Below, piece after piece: positions 1 to 30,229 of a stretch of DNA of 45,244 nucleotides (position 1 is its first letter; each line of letters opens with the position of its first letter). Made by a program: the position numbers and the translations under genes. The stretch is from Candidatus Nitrosopumilus sp. (GTDB lineage Archaea; Thermoproteota; Nitrososphaeria; Nitrososphaerales; Nitrosopumilaceae), in the NCBI RefSeq assembly GCF_029882185.1, contig NZ_JAOULD010000012.1, forward strand, positions 1 to 45,244, given 5' to 3'. Below the pieces are notes generated by a model. The model saw nothing but the letters and a program-made list of their open reading frames with translations, was not told the origin of the DNA and did not search any database.

Positions 1-164
1 TTGATTGGTTAGGAAACAAACACAATGATTCTAAATGTATTGGGGTTGGAGCCAAATTAGAATCCATAATATTTGATTTGGTAAAATCCGGCGTAAAAAC
101 CAAAGATATTGGTGGTACTAGTAGCACTACTGAATTTACAAAACAGATTACTGACAATCTCTAA
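1..164 (+). CDS. 3' end of isocitrate/3-isopropylmalate dehydrogenase family gene (partial)
   Basis: The window opens inside this gene; frame 3 gives 53 residues before the TAA at 162-164. The tail contains KTKDIGGTSSTTEF, the C-terminal signature of the NAD(P)-dependent beta-decarboxylating dehydrogenases (isocitrate, isopropylmalate or homoisocitrate). The enzyme oxidatively decarboxylates a 2-hydroxy acid in the TCA cycle or leucine/lysine pathways; which substrate cannot be decided from the tail. The gene is the integration target of the casposon: the stop codon coincides with the first bases of the left terminal inverted repeat, so the reading frame is preserved. The 5' part is outside the window. 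Confidence 0.8.
   Translation, partial: DWLGNKHNDSKCIGVGAKLESIIFDLVKSGVKTKDIGGTSSTTEFTKQITDNL
151..161. repeat. left target-site duplication of casposon
   Basis: The 11-bp CTGACAATCTC here is repeated at 11131-11141, directly outside the right inverted repeat. Identity extends to 25 bp (148-172 and 11128-11152) because the native target downstream of the insertion point happens to match the start of the inverted repeat, so the true duplication could be 11 to about 14 bp. It encodes the last residues (T)DNL of the target gene. Confidence 0.75.
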
Positions 165-204
165 AAATAGAACACCCCTCTCTCAGGCGTAAAAACTGAC
201 AGGT
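162..204 (+). repeat. left terminal inverted repeat of casposon
   Basis: Aligned without gaps to the reverse complement of 11088-11130, 31 of 43 positions match. The first ten (TAAAAATAGA) and last twelve (AAACTGACAGGT) bases are identical, with a C-rich stretch in between. It starts inside the stop codon of the target gene. The conserved outer and inner blocks are where Cas1 would be expected to recognise the end. Confidence 0.8.
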
Positions 205-274
205 CTTGAAAAGTTATCAGAATAGTATTTTTTGGAAATTCCTTATGATCATGCTTTGGACTATGATTTTCGTT

Positions 275-1336
275 ATGACTCTAAAAGAAAAAAGAAATCA
301 TTACAACGTAAAATTCCTCAAAGGATACGGCCATTCCATTTCTGTAAAGGATTCCAAAATCATTCTAAAGGATTGCCATGATCCCTTTTCTCCACCATTC
401 ATTGAAGAATGGTTTCCAAACAGAATGCCATATGAAAAGATCGTACTTTCTGGCAAGGGATACGTCTCAACTGAAGCATTGGGCATGCTGTCAGAAAATA
501 ATCGTAATGTAATCCTAGTCAATTCCAAAGGGGACATCCAATGTGTGATGAGTGGAACAAAAAGCTCGCTTACTGCAACAAAGTATCGCATGGCCCAGTA
601 TGACACGTTTCGCATTGCATCAAAGAGGGATTACCTGTCAAGACAGGTAGTCAAAGCCAAGATTGGTTCGCAGATTCAGTTTCTAAAGAGCATTGAAAAC
701 CCACAAGTTGAATCAAGCATAGAAAAACTAGAAAAACATCTCAATGATCTGGGAAACAATGTTTTGCATGCAGAGGCAGTCACAAGCAGACTCTACTTTG
801 GGGCATTTTCAAAACTAATTGATGAGAGATTCAAGTTTTCTGCTAGGAATTTACCAATGACTGTGAAAAAGTATGGTGCGACAGACGTGATTAATGCCCT
901 GTTGAACTATGGCTATTCTGTATTGTCTGGGGAAATATCCAAATTCATTCACGGTGTTGGTCTTGACCCTTATTTTGGATTCTATCACAAGAATCATACA
1001 AGTTTCCAATCCTTGGTCTATGACATGATGGAGCCCTTTAGGTGGCTGGTTGAATGTGCAGTTTGGAACATCTCCAATGCAAAATCAAGGCATAGGATCT
1101 CAAAGAAACAGTATTCGTATACTAGAAAAGGAACAGTTGTGTTGGAGTATGATTTGATAAAGTCATTTTTGGAATTGTTGGAGAGAACTTTTCAGAAAGA
1201 GAGAAAATATGATTACAAATTTGGATTAAAGACCAAAGATGGGTTGAAATCAGTTCAGGAGATTACTATTGCAAAGATTGCAGTTCAGAATTTAGCAGAG
1301 CATTGTCTTGGAAAGAATAAAAATTTTGTAATTTAG
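275..1336 (+). CDS. cas1: casposase Cas1 (solo Cas1 integrase)
   Basis: Cas1 fold endonuclease/integrase, here expected to cut and join the casposon ends rather than acquire spacers. The N-terminal beta domain has VKFLKGYGHSISV and YEKIVLSGKGYVSTEALGML. The catalytic helical domain carries E167 in HAEAVTSRLYFG, H238 in GLDPYFGFYH and D250/E253 in LVYDMMEPFR, so all metal ligands are present. Length is 353 residues with this start, close to typical Cas1 plus a C-terminal tail. The frame is open back to a TTG at 206, but that would start 2 nt after the inverted repeat and add an odd Met-rich leader; ATG 275 leaves room for a promoter. No cas2 or array is nearby. The first palindromic repeat follows the stop by 5 nt. 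Confidence 0.9.
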   Translation: MTLKEKRNHYNVKFLKGYGHSISVKDSKIILKDCHDPFSPPFIEEWFPNRMPYEKIVLSGKGYVSTEALGMLSENNRNVILVNSKGDIQCVMSGTKSSLTATKYRMAQYDTFRIASKRDYLSRQVVKAKIGSQIQFLKSIENPQVESSIEKLEKHLNDLGNNVLHAEAVTSRLYFGAFSKLIDERFKFSARNLPMTVKKYGATDVINALLNYGYSVLSGEISKFIHGVGLDPYFGFYHKNHTSFQSLVYDMMEPFRWLVECAVWNISNAKSRHRISKKQYSYTRKGTVVLEYDLIKSFLELLERTFQKERKYDYKFGLKTKDGLKSVQEITIAKIAVQNLAEHCLGKNKNFVI

Positions 1337-1341
1337 ATAAT

Positions 1342-1367
1342 GCGTAATCCTAATGGAGATTATGAAA
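1342..1367. repeat. casposon junction palindrome, copy a (orientation A)
   Basis: Core 1345-1362, TAATCCTAATGGAGATTA, an imperfect palindrome with outer GCG/TATGAAA. It lies 5 nt after the cas1 stop and before the zinc-ribbon pair. Orientation A is defined by CCTA on the left arm. Confidence 0.75.
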
Positions 1368-1467
1368 TTACAAAAAATATGAAACCAATATTTTCATTGA
1401 TTCTAACAAAAGAGAATCTAATCCTTAACTTAAGATAATATGTGACATTATTTGGAAATTGTACATC

Positions 1468-1683
1468 ATGCATTTTTGCCACAATATTTGTATTAAATAC
1501 AAGGCGATGAAACCAAAAAATTACAAATCCAGGTATGAAGAAGGTCAAAAGTTTTGTTCTGGTTGCAGTATATTCATAGAATGGGAGGGCCTGTGGTGTC
1601 CGTGCTGTGGTTATCTCTTAAAACAAGGTCCAAAAAATCGTCACCTTCGAAATAAAATGAATCTAAAAAATGAGAAATCATGA
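1468..1683 (+). CDS. small zinc-ribbon protein (cargo), paralogue of the next gene
   Basis: A 71-residue basic protein with an N-terminal CxxxC (FCHNIC) followed by KYK, then CSGC, FIEWEGLWCPCCGY and a basic tail. CxxC plus CPCC should bind one zinc. The family is common and multicopy in ammonia-oxidising archaea, with unknown function, perhaps nucleic-acid binding. ATG 1468 is chosen because it aligns with the start of the next gene; a TTG at 1459 would add three residues. It overlaps the next gene by 4 nt and lies between palindromic repeats a and b. Confidence 0.7.
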   Translation: MHFCHNICIKYKAMKPKNYKSRYEEGQKFCSGCSIFIEWEGLWCPCCGYLLKQGPKNRHLRNKMNLKNEKS

Positions 1684-1889
1684 CATGTAAAGGAATTTGT
1701 GAACGATACAAAATAACAAAAGGAAAGAAAAATGAGTCTTGGTACAAAAAAGGTGCCAAGCGATGCACAGTCTGCACAATATTCATAGAATGGGAGGGAC
1801 TTTGGTGTCCATGCTGTGGATATATGCTTAGAAATAAACCAAAAGGTAATCAATATAAAAAAACTTTGAAAAGATCTAGAATCGATTAA
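1680..1889 (+). CDS. small zinc-ribbon protein (cargo), tandem paralogue
   Basis: A 69-residue paralogue of the preceding gene: CKGICERYK at the N-terminus, CTVC at about 31-34, then IFIEWEGLWCPCCGYML and a Lys-rich tail. The start overlaps the upstream stop by 4 nt (ATGA), so the two are probably translated from one message. The central block shared by the two is almost identical, pointing to a tandem duplication. Palindromic repeat b begins 23 nt after the stop. Confidence 0.75.
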   Translation: MTCKGICERYKITKGKKNESWYKKGAKRCTVCTIFIEWEGLWCPCCGYMLRNKPKGNQYKKTLKRSRID

Positions 1890-1911
1890 AAATGATGTCG
1901 AAATTTTGATT

Positions 1912-1935
1912 CATAATCTTAGATAGGCTTATGAA
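1912..1935. repeat. casposon junction palindrome, copy b (orientation B)
   Basis: CATAATCTTAGATAGGCTTA followed by TGAA; an imperfect palindrome in the orientation opposite to copy a. It lies between the converging ends of the zinc-ribbon pair and the micro-gene at 1946-2068. Confidence 0.7.
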
Positions 1936-1945
1936 GACAACAAGA

Positions 1946-2068
1946 TTATTCTAGTGGAAAATCGGTTTTACAAATTATACAACGTCCTCTCATTCCTTTG
2001 TATCCCTCATTATAATATTGAATAATTTCTTTTTCACAAATAAAACAAATTATCCTTTTTTCAGACAA
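1946..2068 (-). CDS. 40-aa double-CxxC zinc micro-protein (cargo)
   Basis: The minus strand gives a 40-residue ORF with CFIC near residue 8 and CIICKTDFPLE at the C-terminus, a classic two-knuckle zinc ribbon. The only plausible start is TTG at 2068 (an ATA lies further upstream), so the exact start is uncertain. It fills the interval between palindromic repeats b and c, which would otherwise look non-coding. Function is unknown; a nucleic-acid-binding or protein-interaction role is a guess. Confidence 0.5.
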   Translation of the reverse strand: MSEKRIICFICEKEIIQYYNEGYKGMRGRCIICKTDFPLE

Positions 2069-2097
2069 TACTTCTGATATGTATTCTTATGTTATAA

Positions 2098-2122
2098 GAT
2101 AATCTTAGATAGGATTATGAAG
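2098..2122. repeat. casposon junction palindrome, copy c (orientation B)
   Basis: Core 2100-2117, TAATCTTAGATAGGATTA, then TGAAG. It lies between two divergent genes (minus start at 2068, plus start at 2162), so this copy is at their shared promoter region. Confidence 0.75.
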
Positions 2123-2161
2123 TTTTATAGATAATCAAATATTTCTCAAATTTGTACAAAT

Positions 2162-2683
2162 ATGTCTGAATGGGATATTCCTAATTGGATCACATTGGTA
2201 GTTGAGATTGCTGTTGCAATCTTTGCAATTGCCATCTCCTTGAAATTTTACAAACGAGGAAAAGAACAACAAGAAAAGGCAAAGAAGATTCTTGACAGGA
2301 TTGAAGAATTTACAAAACATGAAACTGAACTAAAAAAAGACAGACATAAACAGTTATTTACTGAATTTGAAGGTATCAAAAAATTTCTAAATCAACTTGA
2401 TGAGGATGTTTATGATGTTCCTTCCGATAAAAATTACATCGAGACATTCAAAAAAGGAAAAGTCGAAATTCCAAGATTAATTAGTAATTATGGTGATCTT
2501 ATGACCTTCGATGAAAAAAATTTGTTTGAGGGATTAAAGGAACATTTTGAAGATATGGCAGAAAGAGATCAAATTAGTATTGAACAAATCCAACCAATAA
2601 TTCATCACATAGATTCTTGTTACCTACAACCCTTAACAGAAATTTATTCTAAAAAATTTTCAGGAGATAATTCGTCTCTTTAG
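2162..2683 (+). CDS. membrane-anchored coiled-coil protein (cargo), unknown
   Basis: 173 residues. One N-terminal transmembrane helix (about 9-29, WITLVVEIAVAIFAIAISLKF) is followed by a charged Lys/Glu coiled-coil (30-65) and a mostly helical cytoplasmic domain. I recognise no family. It sits alone between repeats c and d. The same plan (N-terminal membrane anchor, coiled coil, helical domain) recurs in the cargo gene at 4254-4949, which suggests a common type of role at the membrane such as exclusion or defence; that is inference. Confidence 0.7.
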   Translation: MSEWDIPNWITLVVEIAVAIFAIAISLKFYKRGKEQQEKAKKILDRIEEFTKHETELKKDRHKQLFTEFEGIKKFLNQLDEDVYDVPSDKNYIETFKKGKVEIPRLISNYGDLMTFDEKNLFEGLKEHFEDMAERDQISIEQIQPIIHHIDSCYLQPLTEIYSKKFSGDNSSL

Positions 2684-2691
2684 ATTTTTTA

Positions 2692-2716
2692 CATAATCCT
2701 ATACAAGATTAGGAAG
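2692..2716. repeat. casposon junction palindrome, copy d (orientation A)
   Basis: Core 2694-2711, TAATCCTATACAAGATTA. It starts 9 nt after the stop of the membrane protein gene and opens the interval with the two C2H2-like micro-genes. Confidence 0.75.
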
Positions 2717-2841
2717 TATTGTAACCTCTCAGTTCTATTGCCAGACTCATCTTGTTTTTTGAACTGGACATTCTTACTTGAAGATTACAGCAGGGGAAGA
2801 GAGGAAACTAATTATGGAATTACAGTAATGTTATGAAAAAA

Positions 2842-2879
2842 CCTGACTGCAAAAAGATGACTCCCAAGGTGCAGTCAGG
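2842..2879. repeat. 9-bp perfect inverted repeat in a gene-poor stretch
   Basis: CCTGACTGC at 2842-2850 and its exact complement GCAGTCAGG at 2871-2879 would form a hairpin with a 20-nt loop. It lies in the 2717-3180 stretch, where I see no convincing gene; a 30-codon ORF at 2833-2925 spans the repeat and is doubtful. It could be a structured RNA, a protein-binding site or a relic. Confidence 0.5.
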
Positions 2880-3180
2880 CCAGATTGGAATAACTAGTAG
2901 GTTAGACGGTATGACAGACGCTTAACTTGATTTTGTTTAATGTATTTTTGATAAAAAGGAAATGAGGTAAAGGATAGTAAGTATTTTTTACTTAGATCCT
3001 AGTATTCTCAACATGAAGAGTAGTTGCAGTAAACGAGGACGAGCCATATTTAATCATCTTTTTACATTTGATATGAATAGGAATCTAATGCAAACTAATC
3101 TTTCATAAAATTAAGTTTTCTAAACAAATCACTGATGATTTCTACGTGTCGCTTTAATACTAAAAATTCATAATACTTGT

Positions 3181-3300
3181 ATGCCATGTGATTGTTTCAA
3201 GTGTTATGTATGTGATTTAACATTCAGAGACGAATCAATATCGAACATTCACAAGGACATACTAAAGCACTCCATCAGTAAGATACAGGTTGTTTCATAA
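3181..3300 (+). CDS. 39-aa C2H2-like zinc micro-protein (cargo)
   Basis: ATG at 3181 opens a 39-residue ORF beginning MPCDCFKCYVCDLTFRDE. CYVC is followed by two His (IHKDILKH) at spacing compatible with a C2H2 finger (CxxC...HxxxxH). It is one of two finger genes in the interval between repeats d and e; its 3' end faces that of 3387-3512, 87 nt away. Archaeal single C2H2 fingers of this size are usually of unknown function and may act as DNA-binding regulators. The zinc spacing supports a real gene, but length alone does not. Confidence 0.5.
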   Translation: MPCDCFKCYVCDLTFRDESISNIHKDILKHSISKIQVVS

Positions 3301-3386
3301 AATGACCGCTAGAGATTACTATCAAAATGATCTTATTTTATATTTAATTCCAATGTAACTCATTGAAAGAGATTAAATCTTGCACA

Positions 3387-3512
3387 TCATGTCCAGAGGT
3401 TAAGTTCTTTTGATTCTTTCTTGCTTCTCCACTTGTGTTCTATTTGTAAGTGAACCTCCAGCTTGTGAGGAGTATCTAGGATTGTATGGCAGATTAGACA
3501 GCGGTAGGACAT
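3387..3512 (-). CDS. 41-aa C2H2 zinc-finger protein (cargo), paralogue of 38563-38691
   Basis: Minus-strand ORF of 41 residues: MSYRCLIC at the start, then LDTPHKLEVHLQIEHKW. The spacing C-x2-C, H, H-x4-H matches a C2H2 finger. A close full-length relative lies at 38563-38691 (N-terminal 29 residues almost identical at protein and DNA level). Conservation of reading frame with silent and conservative changes between the copies is good evidence for a real protein. The shared upstream segment (around 3513-3555) also matches upstream of the second copy, so the promoter travelled with it. Confidence 0.75.
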   Translation of the reverse strand: MSYRCLICHTILDTPHKLEVHLQIEHKWRSKKESKELNLWT

Positions 3513-3556
3513 GGGATCTAAGATAAATAATTTTGGAATTAAAGGAGAGGGTTATT

Positions 3557-3582
3557 GCGTAATCTTGTATAGGATTATGAAA
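3557..3582. repeat. casposon junction palindrome, copy e (orientation B)
   Basis: Core 3560-3577, TAATCTTGTATAGGATTA, flanked by GCG and TGAAA. It lies between the start of the minus-strand finger gene and the 3' end of the next minus-strand gene, 5 nt from its stop. Confidence 0.75.
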
Positions 3583-3586
3583 AATC

Positions 3587-4075
3587 TCATGGATTTTCAG
3601 AAGTTAAAAAATCCTCTATAGCTTCTTCTGCTGATGCATCAAAAACAAAAGTCTTAAACTGTATTCTGTGTGATTCAACATCATCACAAGATATCCATGC
3701 CGTCATGATCATTTCGTTTTCAATTTTAAAAATTTTTCCAGCCTTAGCAAACCCATGGAATTCTAAAACTATGTTAGATTTTTCTCCTGGAAATAAGGTG
3801 AAAGGGGATGAAAGAATTTCAGTGACTATCCTATCCTCTGGAACAAAATGTAAAATGCAATTTGTTGCAACATCATTCCCAAAATTGTTTATTGTAAAAT
3901 CCACAAGAAACCATTGATATGGTGATACTAATTTTGGATAATCTACAGCAGTAATTTCAATTTCATCATCACAACCCCCAAAAAAACATAATCCAACAAC
4001 AGATATTTCCATAACAATAAAAAATATTGCAATAGCTGCAACAATGCCTATTATTGCAATACTTTTTGGCTTCAA
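3587..4075 (-). CDS. membrane-anchored extracellular beta-domain protein (cargo), unknown
   Basis: 162 residues. An N-terminal transmembrane helix or uncleaved signal (about 7-32, IAIIGIVAAIAIFFIVMEIS) precedes CFFGGC and a beta-rich domain containing FTINNFGNDVATNCILHF, FPGEKSNIVLEFHGF and a later ISCDD. This resembles CARDB/immunoglobulin-like adhesion modules, and the protein probably faces outside the cell. No precise family is recognised. It is alone between repeats e and f. Confidence 0.65.
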   Translation of the reverse strand: MKPKSIAIIGIVAAIAIFFIVMEISVVGLCFFGGCDDEIEITAVDYPKLVSPYQWFLVDFTINNFGNDVATNCILHFVPEDRIVTEILSSPFTLFPGEKSNIVLEFHGFAKAGKIFKIENEMIMTAWISCDDVESHRIQFKTFVFDASAEEAIEDFLTSENP

Positions 4076-4170
4076 AGCATTTTTTTATTGTGTGTGGATT
4101 ACTTATCTAACAATCATGATTCTCAATTTTAGAAAATAATGATGTCAATATTTTGAATTATACCCAATTT

Positions 4171-4194
4171 GCATAATCCTATCTAAGATTACGC
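4171..4194. repeat. casposon junction palindrome, copy f (orientation A)
   Basis: Core 4174-4191, TAATCCTATCTAAGATTA, the most symmetrical copy, flanked by GCA and CGC. It lies between two divergent genes, 96 nt from the minus-strand start (4075) and 60 nt from the plus-strand start (4254). Confidence 0.8.
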
Positions 4195-4253
4195 AATCAT
4201 GTTGGATAGAAACATAGTAAAATGAAAAATAGTCCTTCTATGGAAATAATAAA

Positions 4254-4949
4254 ATGAATCCTCTCGTTGCACCAATTCCAATTTTAGTTGCAATAGGGTT
4301 TGCAATAGGTTTTATGTTTAATTATACTCCTGACCCATATGCTGAATTATCAATTATTCTTGGAGCAATCAGTATTGGGTTAGCTTTTGCTATTTTTATT
4401 TTACAGCAAAGCCAAAATCAAAAAATCAGTGATCTGGCAAAAGAACAGCATGAAATGATTCAAAAAATTAAGGAAATATCAATTCAACAACAACAAAATA
4501 GAAAAAGTAGGTTAAAACTTGCTCTGCCAAAAATTATAGATGAACTAAAAAATCTACAAACAAGCTACAAATCACTAAAGAGGATTTTAGATGACCCTAA
4601 AAGAGAAGAAATTCTTACACAATTTGAAATGACATCATATAAGAGAAATGATTCTTTTGTAACGGCTGCACGTATTCCACCGCTAATTTTGACTACTAAA
4701 TACGCTGAAAATAAGATGAGAGAATTGTTTAAAGATATTCAATCTGATCTAGATCGAATTATCATGGAAAATACAATTAATCATCCACATTGGGCATGGG
4801 AACATTTTGAGTTTTGTATAAAAAATAAAAATAATTTACAATTGATTAGAGATAGAGTTGATAGTATGGATTTTTCAGTTCAACTACAATATTGTGATTT
4901 TTTGATTGAATATTATGAGTCAGCATTAGCAGATGTCAAAAGTAACTAA
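4254..4949 (+). CDS. membrane protein with two N-terminal helices and coiled coil (cargo), unknown
   Basis: 231 residues. Two hydrophobic segments (about 5-22 and 32-50) are followed by a Gln/Lys-rich coiled coil (52-85) and a helical domain ending FLIEYYESALADVKSN. The architecture parallels the cargo gene at 2162-2683, but I see no direct sequence match. It lies between repeats f and g. A half copy of the palindrome (TAATCCTATCTCATAAAC) follows the stop at about 4950. No family is recognised. Confidence 0.7.
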   Translation: MNPLVAPIPILVAIGFAIGFMFNYTPDPYAELSIILGAISIGLAFAIFILQQSQNQKISDLAKEQHEMIQKIKEISIQQQQNRKSRLKLALPKIIDELKNLQTSYKSLKRILDDPKREEILTQFEMTSYKRNDSFVTAARIPPLILTTKYAENKMRELFKDIQSDLDRIIMENTINHPHWAWEHFEFCIKNKNNLQLIRDRVDSMDFSVQLQYCDFLIEYYESALADVKSN

Positions 4950-5010
4950 TCCTATCTCATAAACGAATTGAACAAAAATTTCTAATCCAGATTTATCAAG
5001 TTAAATTCTT

Positions 5011-5036
5011 GCATAATCTCCATTAGGATTACGAAA
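5011..5036. repeat. casposon junction palindrome, copy g (orientation B)
   Basis: Core 5014-5031, TAATCTCCATTAGGATTA. It lies between converging genes and contains the stop codon (and last codons) of the minus-strand gene 5029-5694, so the gene end is formed by the repeat. Confidence 0.75.
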
Positions 5037-7339: not shown

Positions 7340-7669
7340 ATGATGGACAAATCTGAACGAATAAAAAAACTGAAACAAAGATTGGATGCGCTAAAGATAT
7401 TTCCAAACAACAAGGAAGTAAGAATCCTTAAAGAGAGAATTAAAAAACAACTCTCAAATCTTCAAAAGAAACAAGACAAAAAGAAAAAATCTCAAAAATC
7501 TAATTTGTCTCGTTCAGGAAAACTACGACGATACCACAACTACATCAGACAAATCAGAAACAGTTTTCCTAATTTGGAATACAACCAGATTCGAAGTCAG
7601 TTATCAAAACGTAAGCAGGGAAAAGAAGTTTCAATTCCTGATGTAATATGGCAGAATCCGTCCCCGTAA
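7340..7669 (+). CDS. very basic helical protein upstream of the polymerase (candidate terminal protein)
   Basis: 109 residues (an ATG at 7343 is an equal alternative), about one third Lys/Arg. The N-terminal half is a long helix (IKKLKQRLDALKIFPNNK, then a K-rich run); the C-terminal half has several Tyr and Ser that could be priming residues (KLRRYHNYIRQIRNSF, LEYNQIRSQLSKR). It overlaps the polymerase start by 22 nt, so the two are translationally linked. In protein-primed systems such as phi29 the terminal protein gene lies just upstream of the polymerase. The assignment is inference only. Confidence 0.6.
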   Translation: MMDKSERIKKLKQRLDALKIFPNNKEVRILKERIKKQLSNLQKKQDKKKKSQKSNLSRSGKLRRYHNYIRQIRNSFPNLEYNQIRSQLSKRKQGKEVSIPDVIWQNPSP

Positions 7670-9432
7670 CTGATTTCAAAGATCTCTCAAAGATCTATAC
7701 AAAAATCAGACAAAACAGAAACAATGCATGTTCAGATCTTCGGAAAATACATGCATTGGACACTGAAACGTACAATGGCAATATCTTTCTGATTTGCGAC
7801 TCTGATGGGCTATTTCTAGATGATATCACACCTGAATTAGTCATAAATTGGCTATTTTCACAAAAATATCAGGGCTCGTGGAATTTTTTCTACAATCTGT
7901 CATATGATGCAGAAGTTATCCTAAAACTGCTTGGCAAGGAACTTTTCAAATATAGGACAACTGGCAAGCTTGAGTTTAATTTTGTCAAGTATAGAATTGT
8001 GTATTATCCAAGCAAATGCCTCAAGATCACAGCAGGTCACCACAGTACAATTTTTTATGACATTGCACAATTTTATCATTCTGGTTTGGCTGATGCATAT
8101 CAGAATAACATTGGTAAACTATCTGAATCATATCTTGACATAAAAAAGAATAGAAGTCAGTTCACACTACGATATTACAATCACAATAAGAAAAAAATAA
8201 GAAACTACTGTACTACTGATTGTATCCTAACAAAACAACTGGCAGAAAAATGGGTAAAACTGTTTCACTGTGCATTCTCATTTTATCCTGCAAAGTGGCC
8301 ATCATCAGGATACTTGGCAGAAAAAGTTTTGATTAATCACGGAGTCAATTTTCCAAAGTTTGATACGATACCGTATCTAATTCAAGATTTATCATTTCGT
8401 AGTTACTTTGGAGGTAGATTTGAAATGATAAAACGTGGACATGTTGGTGAATCATATCTGTATGACATCAACTCTGCATATCCACATGCGATTGCAAACC
8501 TGCCTGATCTAAATGATGGAAAGTGGTTAAAGAAAAAAACAATGCACAAAGATGCAAAACTTGGATTCTTTAAAATATTATGTGACATACCAGATACAAA
8601 ACACATTCCACCATTTCCATTCAGAACAAACAACAACATTGTATTTCCAACAGGCAAGTTCATCACATATTGTACTTTAGCAGAACTTCAAGCCTGCAAA
8701 GATGATTCTCTTTACAGGATTCTTGAAGGATACCAGTTTTTTGCAAATTCTGATATTCATCCATATCGTGTTTTTATCGAAAAACTGTACCAGAAAAGAA
8801 TAGAACTAAAGAATCAAAACAATCCCTTACAGCAACCAATCAAGATTATTCTAAACTCCATCTATGGCAAGACGGGTCAAAAAGTAAACAGAGTGATGGG
8901 AAATTTGTTTAATCCTGTTATTTTTTCATACATTACGGGCTTTACTCGCGCTCAACTGTACAGGTTTATGCGTAAAAATGACCTAGAGCGAGACATTGTA
9001 GCATTTGCAACTGATTCTATCTGTTCCACACGTAAACTGGATGTAAATTCTACAAAACTAGGCGATTTCTCATTTGAAGGAGAATCAAGTGATACGTTCT
9101 TTCTGCAAAACGGATTCTATCGGTTCAACGGTAAATGGAAGCAGAGAGGAATTGGAAAACTAGGATCAAGGGAAATTGAACATCTTGATACGATAGAAAA
9201 AGACGGCAAGCTAATTGCAAAGTTGCAGGTTTTGAGAAATTCTAGATTGCGTTCAAGCATCATTCAAAATAAATTGCAAGATATAGGCAAAATCAAACAA
9301 ATTACAAAGGAAATCAATCTCAATGCAGACAGGAAAAGATTGTGGCTAGGCAAAATTGCAAGTATCAATCAAAAGGAATCAAATGATTCTGTGGCAATTT
9401 CATTGAATCATTTCAGGAAGGAGCAGGTTTAA
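7648..9432 (+). CDS. family-B DNA polymerase, protein-primed type, with 3'-5' exonuclease
   Basis: 594 residues. Exonuclease motifs: ExoI HALDTETYNG (D38, E40), ExoII FYNLSYDAEV (D87), ExoIII YCTTDC (Y187, D191). Polymerase motifs: A YDINSAYPH (D273), B KIILNSIYGKTG (K399-Y406), C FATDS (D456). The size and compact motif spacing match protein-primed PolB (pPolB) as in casposon family 1 and phi29-like replicons, which copy linear DNA from a terminal protein. The first Asp of the canonical DTDS in motif C is Ala here (A454); the main metal ligand D456 is kept. It is coupled to the basic protein upstream and converges with the HEPN gene (4-nt overlap). A decayed relative lies at 26674-26880. Confidence 0.9.
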   Translation: MAESVPVTDFKDLSKIYTKIRQNRNNACSDLRKIHALDTETYNGNIFLICDSDGLFLDDITPELVINWLFSQKYQGSWNFFYNLSYDAEVILKLLGKELFKYRTTGKLEFNFVKYRIVYYPSKCLKITAGHHSTIFYDIAQFYHSGLADAYQNNIGKLSESYLDIKKNRSQFTLRYYNHNKKKIRNYCTTDCILTKQLAEKWVKLFHCAFSFYPAKWPSSGYLAEKVLINHGVNFPKFDTIPYLIQDLSFRSYFGGRFEMIKRGHVGESYLYDINSAYPHAIANLPDLNDGKWLKKKTMHKDAKLGFFKILCDIPDTKHIPPFPFRTNNNIVFPTGKFITYCTLAELQACKDDSLYRILEGYQFFANSDIHPYRVFIEKLYQKRIELKNQNNPLQQPIKIILNSIYGKTGQKVNRVMGNLFNPVIFSYITGFTRAQLYRFMRKNDLERDIVAFATDSICSTRKLDVNSTKLGDFSFEGESSDTFFLQNGFYRFNGKWKQRGIGKLGSREIEHLDTIEKDGKLIAKLQVLRNSRLRSSIIQNKLQDIGKIKQITKEINLNADRKRLWLGKIASINQKESNDSVAISLNHFRKEQV

Positions 9433-10301
9433 TTTTGTTCAATTTGTTTACAAGTATTTTTTACATTATCTAGCATCTTTTTCAAATTATCTTTTTGTTC
9501 GAGATAAATTTCATCTGAAATTTTTTCATCAATTTGAAAAGGATATCTAGAAATTTCTTGATGTGGATAAGTAAGTGCTATAATATCTATCCAATCCATA
9601 CATTTACACAATTTAAGATATTTTGTCATATTTTGTGTTAAATCCCGCGATAATGTTTTTCCGCCAGAACCCCATCCAAAATTATTCATTACTTTGTTCA
9701 TTATTTCCATAGTTTTTTCAGGATTTTCCATTGAAAATAGATTTGGCAGATGTTGTAAAAATTCTAAACCTGCTTTTTCTCTTTCAGTTAATTTTGACGT
9801 ATCAATTTTGTCAATACCAATTTTATCAATTGCTGATTGATAATCGGATGAAACGACATTACTTTGTTCATAAAATTCATCCACATTTTTTAAGAATTTT
9901 GTGAATTTTCCTTGGAATAAATTTGATTCATGTTTATTTAACGACAACGCAAGTGATTCTTTCCAAATTGCTATTTTAGCTACTTCGTTGGATTCAATAA
10001 ACTCCAATAATTCATGAAGGTTTTCTAAAGCCCCCCAACTTAATTTTACATAATCGGTAGGGGGATCTAAATTAATTTTTTTTGCAGATATTATCATTTC
10101 ATCTATAATTTTTGGCATCTGAAGATGGCCTAGATTTTTTATATTGTGAACTATTTCATTTTTTAACAAATATGCTTTCAAGTGTTTTTCTAATGCCTGT
10201 TGTAAAAAAAATCCAGTTATTGGATAATCTCCATTTTTAAAGGCATTCTCTGCTCGTTGAATGTCTGTTTTTCCATACTGAAATAAATCTAAATAATTCA
10301 T
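9429..10301 (-). CDS. HEPN-domain protein
   Basis: 290 residues. The first 110 residues have the HEPN pattern: AENAFKNGDYPITGFFLQQALEKHLKAYLL, then LGHLQMPKIIDEM. HEPN proteins are often RNases of toxin-antitoxin or defence systems, or partners of a nucleotidyltransferase, which is absent here. I do not see a clear RxxxxH catalytic motif, so it may be non-catalytic. The C-terminal 180 residues are helical and unrecognised. It converges with the polymerase gene, overlapping by 4 nt, and is the last protein gene of the casposon. Confidence 0.65.
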   Translation of the reverse strand: MNYLDLFQYGKTDIQRAENAFKNGDYPITGFFLQQALEKHLKAYLLKNEIVHNIKNLGHLQMPKIIDEMIISAKKINLDPPTDYVKLSWGALENLHELLEFIESNEVAKIAIWKESLALSLNKHESNLFQGKFTKFLKNVDEFYEQSNVVSSDYQSAIDKIGIDKIDTSKLTEREKAGLEFLQHLPNLFSMENPEKTMEIMNKVMNNFGWGSGGKTLSRDLTQNMTKYLKLCKCMDWIDIIALTYPHQEISRYPFQIDEKISDEIYLEQKDNLKKMLDNVKNTCKQIEQN

Positions 10302-10883
10302 AGATGTTTTTATTTAACTTTATTAAAAAAGAATGTGAATTTAGTATTATAATTTACAATTAACTTAGAATTTTATAATATCCATCATGATTACAAAATA
10401 ACATATTGAAAAATTAATTTTATATTCTATAGAAAACAGTAATATCTATAAAATATGTTTAGAATTTCACTATTCGTAGAGTTTTGTAGAATCTATAGAT
10501 CTTGATTTTGATATGAATAGAAGATAATATCATGTAACATTCTATTCCTAGATGTTATGGCTAGTTATTGATCAGAAATAGTATATCTAATCATTATTAG
10601 TTCTATTAGACAATGCTAGATTTTACAAAAACTATCATCACAGTGTAACCTTTTTTTCAATTTCTATTCATAGACTGAAAATATTGTTTGTAGATTTCCC
10701 TGCAGCATCATTATCTTTTAGTGTAGAATTAGTATTTCTGACAAGTCTACTCTAGCTAATTTGTAGCTTTTGTAGATTTGAGAATTTTATGAATAGATGT
10801 CATATTGGATAACATAAATTGAATTAACGCAATTACATGAAAATCATGATCAATGTTAAATATCATTTTAACGTATCAATAAT
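10302..10883. other. AT-rich non-coding stretch of casposon with repeated ATGAATAGA/TCTATTCAT
   Basis: No ORF looks real. The hexamer-like word TCTATT or its complement recurs in several variants (for example TTCTATTCATAGAC near 10660, ATGAATAGAAG near 10513, ATGAATAGATG near 10791, ACTATTCGTAGAG near 10468). These may be protein-binding sites near the end of the element or remnants of a lost gene. It adjoins the structured segment at 10884-10985. Confidence 0.4.
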
Positions 10884-10985: not shown

Positions 10986-11087
10986 GTTTTTAATTTCAAA
11001 ACTCCTCTTGCAAAACCATTTCTATTAACAAAGTTTCCATTGCATCTTCAATGAAGAATTTTGAATGAATCAAGAACTACTTTCTAA

Positions 11088-11130
11088 ACCTGTCAGTTTG
11101 CAGGCACAAACGGGGGGCAGTCTATTTTTA
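11088..11130 (-). repeat. right terminal inverted repeat of casposon
   Basis: The reverse complement aligns with 162-204 at 31 of 43 positions without gaps, with identical outer TAAAAATAGA and inner AAACTGACAGGT blocks. The middle is more G/C-rich (CCCCCC) than in the left end. Confidence 0.8.
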
Positions 11131-11141
11131 CTGACAATCTC
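11131..11141. repeat. right target-site duplication of casposon
   Basis: CTGACAATCTC, identical to 151-161. The three bases before it (TTA) and eleven after (to 11152) also match the left side, giving 25 bp in total. Removing one copy together with 162-11130 restores an uninterrupted dehydrogenase 3' end and stop codon. Confidence 0.75.
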
Positions 11142-11170
11142 TAAAAATAGAATCCCTCCTTTTTGTGCCT
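11142..11170 (+). repeat. TIR-like sequence outside the right end of the casposon
   Basis: Read on the plus strand, this stretch matches the reverse complement of the right terminal repeat at 24 of 29 positions without gaps, including TAAAAATAGA and TTTGTGCCT. It is in the orientation expected for a left end. It is either the native terminator region of the dehydrogenase gene, which the element's ends mimic, or the remaining end of a second casposon. The 11171-11470 stretch that follows holds no gene I can support. Confidence 0.55.
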
Positions 11171-29128: not shown

Positions 29129-30229
29129 TTGAAACAAAGAAGCTTGCTTTTATTTGAAAATAGCATAAAATCTGAGGCCACAAAGAAGGAATATTTTAAG
29201 AGTCTCAACAGATTCAAGGAATTTTTCAAATTAAAGGATTTTGATAGCATAATCAAGATGGAACCAAAACAGATCCAAATTATGATTGAGGACTACGTGA
29301 TGGAAATTAAGAACCATCTGTCTCCTAATACTGTCCCTACTAGGATTTTTCCGATTCAGACGTTCTGTGATGTTAATGATGTTATTCTAAACTGGAAGAA
29401 AATAAGGCGGTTGTTCCCTGCCAAGGTTAAAAGATCCGGTGCAAAGCCATGGACTACCAAGAATATTCAAAAGATGCTGGAATATTCTCCTGATGCTCGC
29501 TCAAAGGCACTGATTCATTTCCTTGCTTCAACAGGTGTCCGAATTGGTGCAATTTCTGAGTTGAGATTGAAGCATTTGGCAGAGATGTCAGGTGGTTGCA
29601 AGTCCGTGATTGTATACCCTGATTCGACTGAGGAATATGTGACATATATGACTCCTGAGGCCTCAAAAGCACTTAATGTTTATCTGAACAAGAGGCGTGA
29701 TGATGGTGAACTGATTAAACCTGACAGTCCAGTGTTTAGAACACAATATCAGATTGGAATTCAGAAGGTCACACCATTAAGTGAACGCGGAATGAGCAAT
29801 GTAATGCAACGAGTAATCAAAAGATCTTTGATAAAGAGAGAGAAAAACAATGGCCCAAGATATGATGTGCAGCTTGATCATGGATTTCGCAAGCGATGGA
29901 ATACGATCTTAAAATTAAACAAGGATATTTCGCCAGCTGTTGTCGAGAAGATGATGGGACACAAAGTAAACCTTGATCATGTCTACATGACTCCAACAGA
30001 TGATCAAATGTTTGGAGAATTTCAAAAGGCTATTGCTGATCTTACCATAGATGATTCTGAAAGAGTAAGGGTTGAAAATGAAAAGCTTGAAACTGAAAAG
30101 ACAGAGCTTGAAAAGAAGGTAGATGAGATTGAAGAAATGAAGCGCCAGCAGGCCGACGAGAACGCAAGGCGTGACCAGGCCTTGGAGTACCTAATGGCCA
30201 AAGAGAAGGCACGGGAAGAGAATATTTGA
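29129..30229 (+). CDS. tyrosine recombinase/integrase
   Basis: 366 residues from TTG. N-terminal SAM-like core-binding domain (about 5-95) and catalytic domain: R138 in STGVRIGAISEL, H251 and R254 in LDHGFRKRWNTI, H278 in MMGHKV and the nucleophile Y286 in DHVYMTPT, so the RHRHY set is complete apart from a Lys I cannot place. The C-terminal 65 residues are a charged coiled coil (VENEKLETEKTELEKKVDEI) that might mediate oligomerisation. It converges with 30231-31148 with a 1-nt gap. It should integrate and excise the element. Confidence 0.88.
   Translation: MKQRSLLLFENSIKSEATKKEYFKSLNRFKEFFKLKDFDSIIKMEPKQIQIMIEDYVMEIKNHLSPNTVPTRIFPIQTFCDVNDVILNWKKIRRLFPAKVKRSGAKPWTTKNIQKMLEYSPDARSKALIHFLASTGVRIGAISELRLKHLAEMSGGCKSVIVYPDSTEEYVTYMTPEASKALNVYLNKRRDDGELIKPDSPVFRTQYQIGIQKVTPLSERGMSNVMQRVIKRSLIKREKNNGPRYDVQLDHGFRKRWNTILKLNKDISPAVVEKMMGHKVNLDHVYMTPTDDQMFGEFQKAIADLTIDDSERVRVENEKLETEKTELEKKVDEIEEMKRQQADENARRDQALEYLMAKEKAREENI

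Follow-up and report, generated by a model that had tools for sequence, protein, structure and literature searches.

Dif-like sites between accessory genes of Nitrosopumilus-group archaea as probable exchange sites of an XerA-like recombinase

Few microbes in the sea are as abundant as the ammonia-oxidising archaea, and little is understood of the ways in which they acquire and exchange accessory genes. A contig of Candidatus Nitrosopumilus sp. (NZ_JAOULD010000012.1; the whole stretch of 45,244 nucleotides is called the window here) carries a casposon in which unrelated genes on both strands are separated by seven copies of a palindromic repeat. What are these repeats for? An earlier note on this DNA had suggested a cassette system in which the repeats serve as exchange sites. 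We consider it probable that Nitrosopumilus-group archaea possess an Xer/dif-like cassette system based on a tyrosine recombinase, that the repeats are its double-strand recombination sites and that exchange is gated by the identity of the core. The cassette proposal is supported by four observations: homology between arrays ends at sites, one switch of cassettes is resolved to the base, unrelated genes occupy the same slot and a family of tyrosine recombinases adjoins the arrays.

All seven repeats were found, with 28-mers starting at 1340, 1909, 2095, 2689, 3555, 4169 and 5009. Each is a full 28-bp site composed of an 11-bp arm, a 6-bp core and a second 11-bp arm, with the consensus TTTCRTAATCC-N6-AGATTAYGAAA (R and Y, degenerate positions), and this 11-6-11 geometry is that of dif and pdif sites. 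Site 1 (1340..1367, plus strand) reads ATGCGTAATCC-TAATGG-AGATTATGAAA. It is followed by two minus-strand sites, site 2 (1909..1936; CTTCATAAGCC-TATCTA-AGATTATGAAT) and site 3 (2095..2122; CTTCATAATCC-TATCTA-AGATTATCTTA), the latter with a decayed right arm. Site 4 (2689..2716, plus; TTACATAATCC-TATACA-AGATTAGGAAG) and site 5 (3555..3582, minus; TTTCATAATCC-TATACA-AGATTACGCAA) occupy the middle of the array. Site 6 (4169..4196, plus) reads TTGCATAATCC-TATCTA-AGATTACGCAA, and site 7 (5009..5036, minus; TTTCGTAATCC-TAATGG-AGATTATGCAA) has the core of site 1 in inverted orientation. The cores are thus nested as same-core pairs (TAATGG+, TATCTA-, TATCTA-, TATACA+, TATACA-, TATCTA+, TAATGG-), and the orientations described previously as A,B,B,A,B,A,B were borne out as +,-,-,+,-,+,-.

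The repeats stand out clearly from their background. An 18-bp core pattern with up to three mismatches matched the window 19 times, compared with 4.9 matches expected, and none of 100 shuffles reached 19. The seven sites scored 24-33 bits with a position matrix; two shuffled sequences of 202 kb peaked at 13.5 bits, and the next-highest score in the window was 13.3 bits, at position 10371. Further, the matrix scan of the window detected no other copy in the polymerase half, in agreement with the earlier description. When the seven sites were aligned in one orientation, no conservation was seen in the flanks beyond the 28-bp unit. Among 146 sites, information reached 1.9 bits at arm positions and was close to zero in the centre of the core. 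When folded individually as single-stranded DNA, the window copies formed only weak hairpins (-1.1 to -3.6 kcal/mol); a terminator or an attC-like hairpin is therefore not indicated.

Sites of this kind were detected in 27 of 95 genomes of the genus at no more than two mismatches, where a reversed-pattern control matched once, and in 33 of 250 genomes of the family, belonging to six genera, at no more than one mismatch, where the control did not match at all. The repeat is accordingly not a genome-wide palindrome of random intergenic regions; such a palindrome would have spoken against exchange sites. The sites were clustered in arrays, a median of 710 bp apart, and most intervals held a single open reading frame (ORF). 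The genome of the window (G000; 1.66 Mb) is divided into 102 contigs; arrays were also present in the single-contig genomes G022, G045 and G067, and the pattern is therefore independent of binning. Most genomes lacked a dif-like single copy of the motif, and neither the sites nor the recombinase family described below (family A) was found in viral contigs. Two observations on individual sites may be added. A segment of 91-92 bp without an ORF lies between CTGGGA and TAGTAG sites in two genomes (L096 5339-5457 and L105 2383-2502; 84% identical) and may have a structural role in the array. In G067, a lone dif-like site (L091 2582-2609) lies beside a gene for a CARF/HFX_2341-type regulator (L091 1672-2436).

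Adjacent sites mostly have unlike cores, and the pair of cores that flanks a cassette can be regarded as its slot. Adjacent core pairs recurred 28 times, compared with 6.3 expected and a maximum of 14 in 500 shuffles. When arrays were compared, the order and relative orientation of cores agreed in 84% of comparable pairs; the maximum was 57.5% in 500 full shuffles and 69% when strands were kept. In several genomes, the cores run from the recombinase side as TTAGRT, TAGTAG, GTAGTT, ATAGTA and TATACA, with some of them missing from single arrays. Of 94 neighbouring site pairs, 61 were inverted and 33 had the same orientation.

Slots with the same core pair were filled by unrelated genes in different arrays, and three different slots carried members of one small protein family. 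The ATAGTA/TATACA slot had seven different contents across arrays, including a multicopper oxidase, a histidine kinase together with a phosphonate-binding protein, a YCF48-like protein and two methyltransferases without detectable similarity to each other. The cargo as a whole included multicopper oxidase, sensor kinase, chemoreceptor, transporter, methyltransferases and a PARIS-like defence protein. The last, a cassette protein of 645 aa (L089 8400-10337), looks like an AriAB defence ATPase in fused form; its best match in PADLOC has an E value of 7e-88.

Homology between arrays broke at the sites. Fifty of 234 ends of homologous blocks fell on sites, compared with a mean of 16.9 and a maximum of 28 in a shifted null. 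The clearest case is a pair of contigs of the metagenome-assembled genome (MAG) NORP47, L186 and L187, which share 1924 bp at 99.7% identity, a stretch that covers the recombinase gene and three sites. Identity stops at the next-to-last base of a GTAGTT site, beyond which the sequences are unrelated; past this divergence, the next cores in both contigs are again ATAGTA- and TATACA+. In the complete genome G022, a block of 445 bp with 99% identity ends at a TGGTAT site. Four blocks ending at sites reached at least 97% identity, and every one of them joined sites of the same core. For two sites drawn at random, a common core has a probability of 0.058; the chance of the observed result, which is comparative, is about 1e-5.

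Candidates for the enzyme were collected by profile searches with PF00589. One group of 300-320 aa, called family A here (alignment A1), conserves R, K, HxxR and Y. Its closest solved relative is XerA of P. abyssi (4a8e, E = 2e-21), and its structure model (mean predicted local distance difference test score, 83) also had XerA as the best match in the PDB, with modest TM-scores (0.37-0.46). Family A is not an XerA orthologue by the XerA model NF040815 (76-93 bits; cut-off, 220), nor is it IntI by TIGR02249 (at most 40.5 bits; cut-off, 265). At 12 of 14 family A loci of Nitrosopumilales, sites were present and began 35-1300 bp past the gene on its downstream side, whereas up to 8 kb of upstream sequence at the 14 loci held no site (sign test, P = 5e-4). 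In stretches of equal size, sites were found at five of six family A loci and at none of 52 other integrase loci (P = 1e-6). Within the genus, seven of the eight genomes with family A also carried sites (P = 5e-4), and in a different genus a recombinase gene and an array are arranged likewise (L191).

At locus L197, a diverged recombinase copy (46% identical) precedes two sites that have arms of another sequence, CTGCGCATACT-TGGTAA-GGTATGCGCAA (9519-9546) and TTGCGCAGTCC-TAGTAT-AGTATGCGCAA (10264-10291). A control search returned one such passing pair in 432 kb. This single case fits arms that co-vary with the enzyme. At the loci of distant family A relatives (Bathyarchaeota, Hadesarchaea and others), convincing dif-like sites were not found. 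Judging from sequence and gene neighbourhood, the XerA-like family A is most likely the recombinase of these sites. The integrase encoded in the window at 29129-30229 was rejected for this role, being outside family A and without sites nearby.

In the mechanism that we propose, one recombinase protomer would bind each of the two near-identical 11-bp arms, two sites with the same core would synapse, and strand cleavage at the borders of the 6-bp core would be followed by strand exchange. Exchange would be limited to sites of identical or nearly identical core. Any cassette with a matching pair of cores could then take the place of an accessory gene that is flanked by two sites, usually inverted and with unlike cores, in the manner of recombinase-mediated cassette exchange; same-core pairs would give excision when direct and inversion when inverted. 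Core identity would thereby act as an address that preserves the order of cassettes. Complete platforms would have the family A gene immediately upstream of the array. The cassettes of the window, which may have been mobile in the past, would be mobile only if the enzyme were supplied in trans.

Several observations weigh against this mechanism. Some homologous cassettes end at unlike cores (TATACA and TAGTAG); these are more distant homologues, and the core rule is therefore not absolute. About a third of neighbouring site pairs (33/94) share orientation. The clearest switch of cassettes lies within a single MAG and could reflect a mixture of strains, and all loci bearing the recombinase come from MAGs. 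The search for a clean pair of empty and occupied loci was unsuccessful for the window array; at the tRNA/pyrophosphatase locus of G064 a larger island is inserted, and this locus was therefore rejected as an empty site. Finally, only 11 of 250 genomes contain family A, and the majority of site-bearing genomes, including that of the window and the complete genomes G022, G045 and G067, lack an intact copy. G022 carries many sites and has no PF00589 match at all.

The cassette proposal has to be corrected in this respect: a matching recombinase is not present in the window's own genome, and the window array is therefore an orphan. By analogy with clusters of attC sites lacking integron-integrases (CALINs), arrays would outlive or outnumber their recombinases. 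Broken remnants of family A were found in G016 and G067. The recent events in G022 would require an enzyme acting in trans, a recent loss of the enzyme or an enzyme that was not recognised.

An alternative is that the housekeeping Xer of the host moves the cassettes and that family A is merely one user of a general dif-type site. The geometry of the sites is the same as that of dif, the majority of arrays are in genomes without family A, and the dif modules of Acinetobacter use the host XerC/XerD (PMC13141974). However, the complete genomes G006 and G060 resemble G022 in having no PF00589 match, most genomes lack the single motif copy that a dif site would provide, and the other integrase loci are free of sites (0/52). 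We therefore regard this explanation as unlikely.

A slightly less likely explanation is that the sites are terminal inverted repeats (TIRs) of nested non-autonomous elements resembling miniature inverted-repeat transposable elements, with the same-core pairs as element ends. The nesting in the window, TAATGG(TATCTA(TATACA..TATACA)TATCTA)TAATGG, with inverted pairs, is also expected from nested insertion. Elsewhere, however, neighbours usually have unlike cores, and core pairs and their order recur in independent arrays around unrelated genes. Further, each site is common to the cassettes on either side, the cassette proteins scanned against Pfam include no recognised transposase, and it is a tyrosine recombinase that adjoins the arrays.

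A regulatory role as operators, terminators or promoters common to accessory genes is very improbable. The sites are palindromic and intergenic, and some gene ends abut or overlap them. However, they occupy convergent, divergent and tandem gaps alike, on which ground the earlier note had argued against a plain terminator or promoter, and they form weak hairpins; their core order is kept despite different genes, homology between loci breaks at them, and regulation leaves their linkage to a single recombinase family unexplained. A terminator or operator was ruled out on gap context and on the homology breaks at sites.

The dif-like cassette system that we favour over these alternatives is represented in the window by the following contents. 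Cassette 1 (1459..1889, plus strand; slot TAATGG/TATCTA) encodes in tandem two related small proteins (74 and 69 aa) that have paired CxxC motifs and by eye are zinc-ribbon-like; relatives lie near arrays in other genomes. A short interval bordered by two direct TATCTA sites follows (1937..2094; no ORF of at least 50 aa). The TATCTA/TATACA slot (2162..2683, plus) holds a protein of 173 aa with an N-terminal membrane segment predicted by eye and no family above the cut-off in a Pfam scan; its initial 33 aa are 85% identical to a protein encoded next to a TATACA site of contig C73. The interval between the inverted TATACA sites (2717..3554, 838 bp) is cassette-like and likewise has no ORF of at least 50 aa; an Rfam search of the first 12 kb of the window, which includes it, gave no match. 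A repeat in every gap between genes, as described before, is thus only roughly correct: the intervals after 1936 (159 bp) and 2716 (838 bp) lack such ORFs. The remaining slots, TATACA/TATCTA and TATCTA/TAATGG, hold a protein of 162 aa without a Pfam family (3587..4075, minus) and a predicted membrane protein of 231 aa without a Pfam match above the cut-off (4254..4949, plus). Some gene ends in the window touch or overlap a site.

The array sits within a casposon of about 11 kb with Cas1, PolB, TIRs and a target duplication. The casposase, of the Cas1 family (206..1336, plus), matched PF01867 (E = 6e-47), and a family B DNA polymerase of the protein-primed type (7648..9432, plus) matched PF03175 (E = 1e-23). 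The TIR regions (repeat I1) lie at 162..211 (plus) and 11081..11130 (minus) and are imperfect, 72% complementary over 50 nt. The 25-bp target-site duplications (direct repeat D9) are at 148..172 (TTACTGACAATCTCTAAAAATAGAA) and 11128..11152. A search with the window casposase found Cas1 relatives in 31 of 95 genomes of the genus; a site was nearby at one of 29 other cas1 loci, the exception being a truncated cas1 in G052. The array is therefore additional cargo and no part of casposon anatomy; a repeat specific to casposons was ruled out on the same grounds. The same count shows that relatives do not share the cargo; identical cargo in all of them would have spoken against cassettes.

Three features of the window concern its mobile elements in general. 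The casposon seems to have integrated into the 3' end of a gene (1-172 and 11128-11152), whose last 53 residues resemble the C-terminus of what we take to be an isocitrate/isopropylmalate dehydrogenase, Pfam giving no match. Such a dehydrogenase-like target was not among the thaumarchaeal casposon targets named in the literature passages at hand. Beside PolB, the casposon encodes a HEPN-domain protein (PF05168; 9429-10301). The integrase at 29129-30229 is an XerC-like phage-type protein of 366 aa, probably from another integrated element, with no dif-like sites nearby.

If the proposed mechanism is correct, a cassette system with its own enzyme would give ammonia-oxidising archaea an integron-like route of gene exchange, dif-type module exchange would extend beyond Acinetobacter, and naturally orthogonal core sequences would be available for ordered DNA assembly. 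We suggest, more tentatively, that this is a categorically new archaeal platform, in which a dedicated XerA-like recombinase builds up ordered arrays, the core is the address and slots accept only matching core pairs. Nature would here have its own version of orthogonal recombinase-mediated cassette exchange, one that differs both from integrons and from dif modules moved by host Xer and that can ride casposons. A description of such a system was not found in the open-access literature; subscription papers and preprints were outside that search. The passages seen of a survey of thaumarchaeal mobile elements (PMC6563490) do not mention such sites.

Among known systems, the family 1 casposons of thaumarchaea share Cas1, PolB, TIRs and the target duplication with the carrier of the window array; they differ in that the array is extra cargo in the window element. 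Archaeal XerA/dif chromosome resolution resembles the present system in the fold of the recombinase, in being its closest sequence relative (4a8e and 5hxy) and in site geometry. However, it has one dif per chromosome, whereas here many sites flank cargo in some genomes and none occur in most, and the recombinase is accessory and far under the cut-off of the XerA family.

Integrons are known in archaea, with IntI and attC (PMC9668308). Like integrons and CALINs, the present system has a cassette array adjoining a tyrosine recombinase gene (12 of 14 loci) and many orphan arrays without a recombinase. In contrast to attC, with its boxes and stable hairpin, the sites are double-stranded and dif-like, with genes on both strands; the recombinase is not IntI, and the array lies downstream of the 3' end of its gene. 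Both attC boxes (RYYYAAC/GTTRRRY) were present in none of 146 sites, and an attC or integron site was ruled out by this motif result together with the weak fold. The integron-like logic proposed by the earlier note thus stands as regards cassettes, and the sequence is indeed unrelated; the sites themselves are dif-like (11-6-11) rather than attC-like.

The dif modules of Acinetobacter have been described as unique to that genus (PMC13141974). Modules of its Rep_3 plasmids, with their pdif sites, are alike in having 28-bp 11-6-11 sites and unrelated accessory genes in between; exchange is likewise tied to identical or near-identical cores, and inversion and deletion are possible. Their modules are bounded by sites of alternating, inverse orientation, and of the archaeal neighbouring pairs 61 of 94 were inverted. 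They differ in being carried by Rep_3/OrfX plasmids, whereas the archaeal arrays are on chromosomal contigs and one casposon, and in relying on the host XerC/XerD, whereas a dedicated XerA-like recombinase adjoins the array here. Further, the archaeal arms are by eye unrelated to the XerC/XerD sites of Acinetobacter, and the archaeal core types are in fixed order. Defining features of dif modules and of integrons were tested and found to be absent, and the system is therefore filed under neither. Its closest relative in anatomy is the dif module of Acinetobacter and in layout the integron, and it looks like an archaeal counterpart of both bacterial systems.

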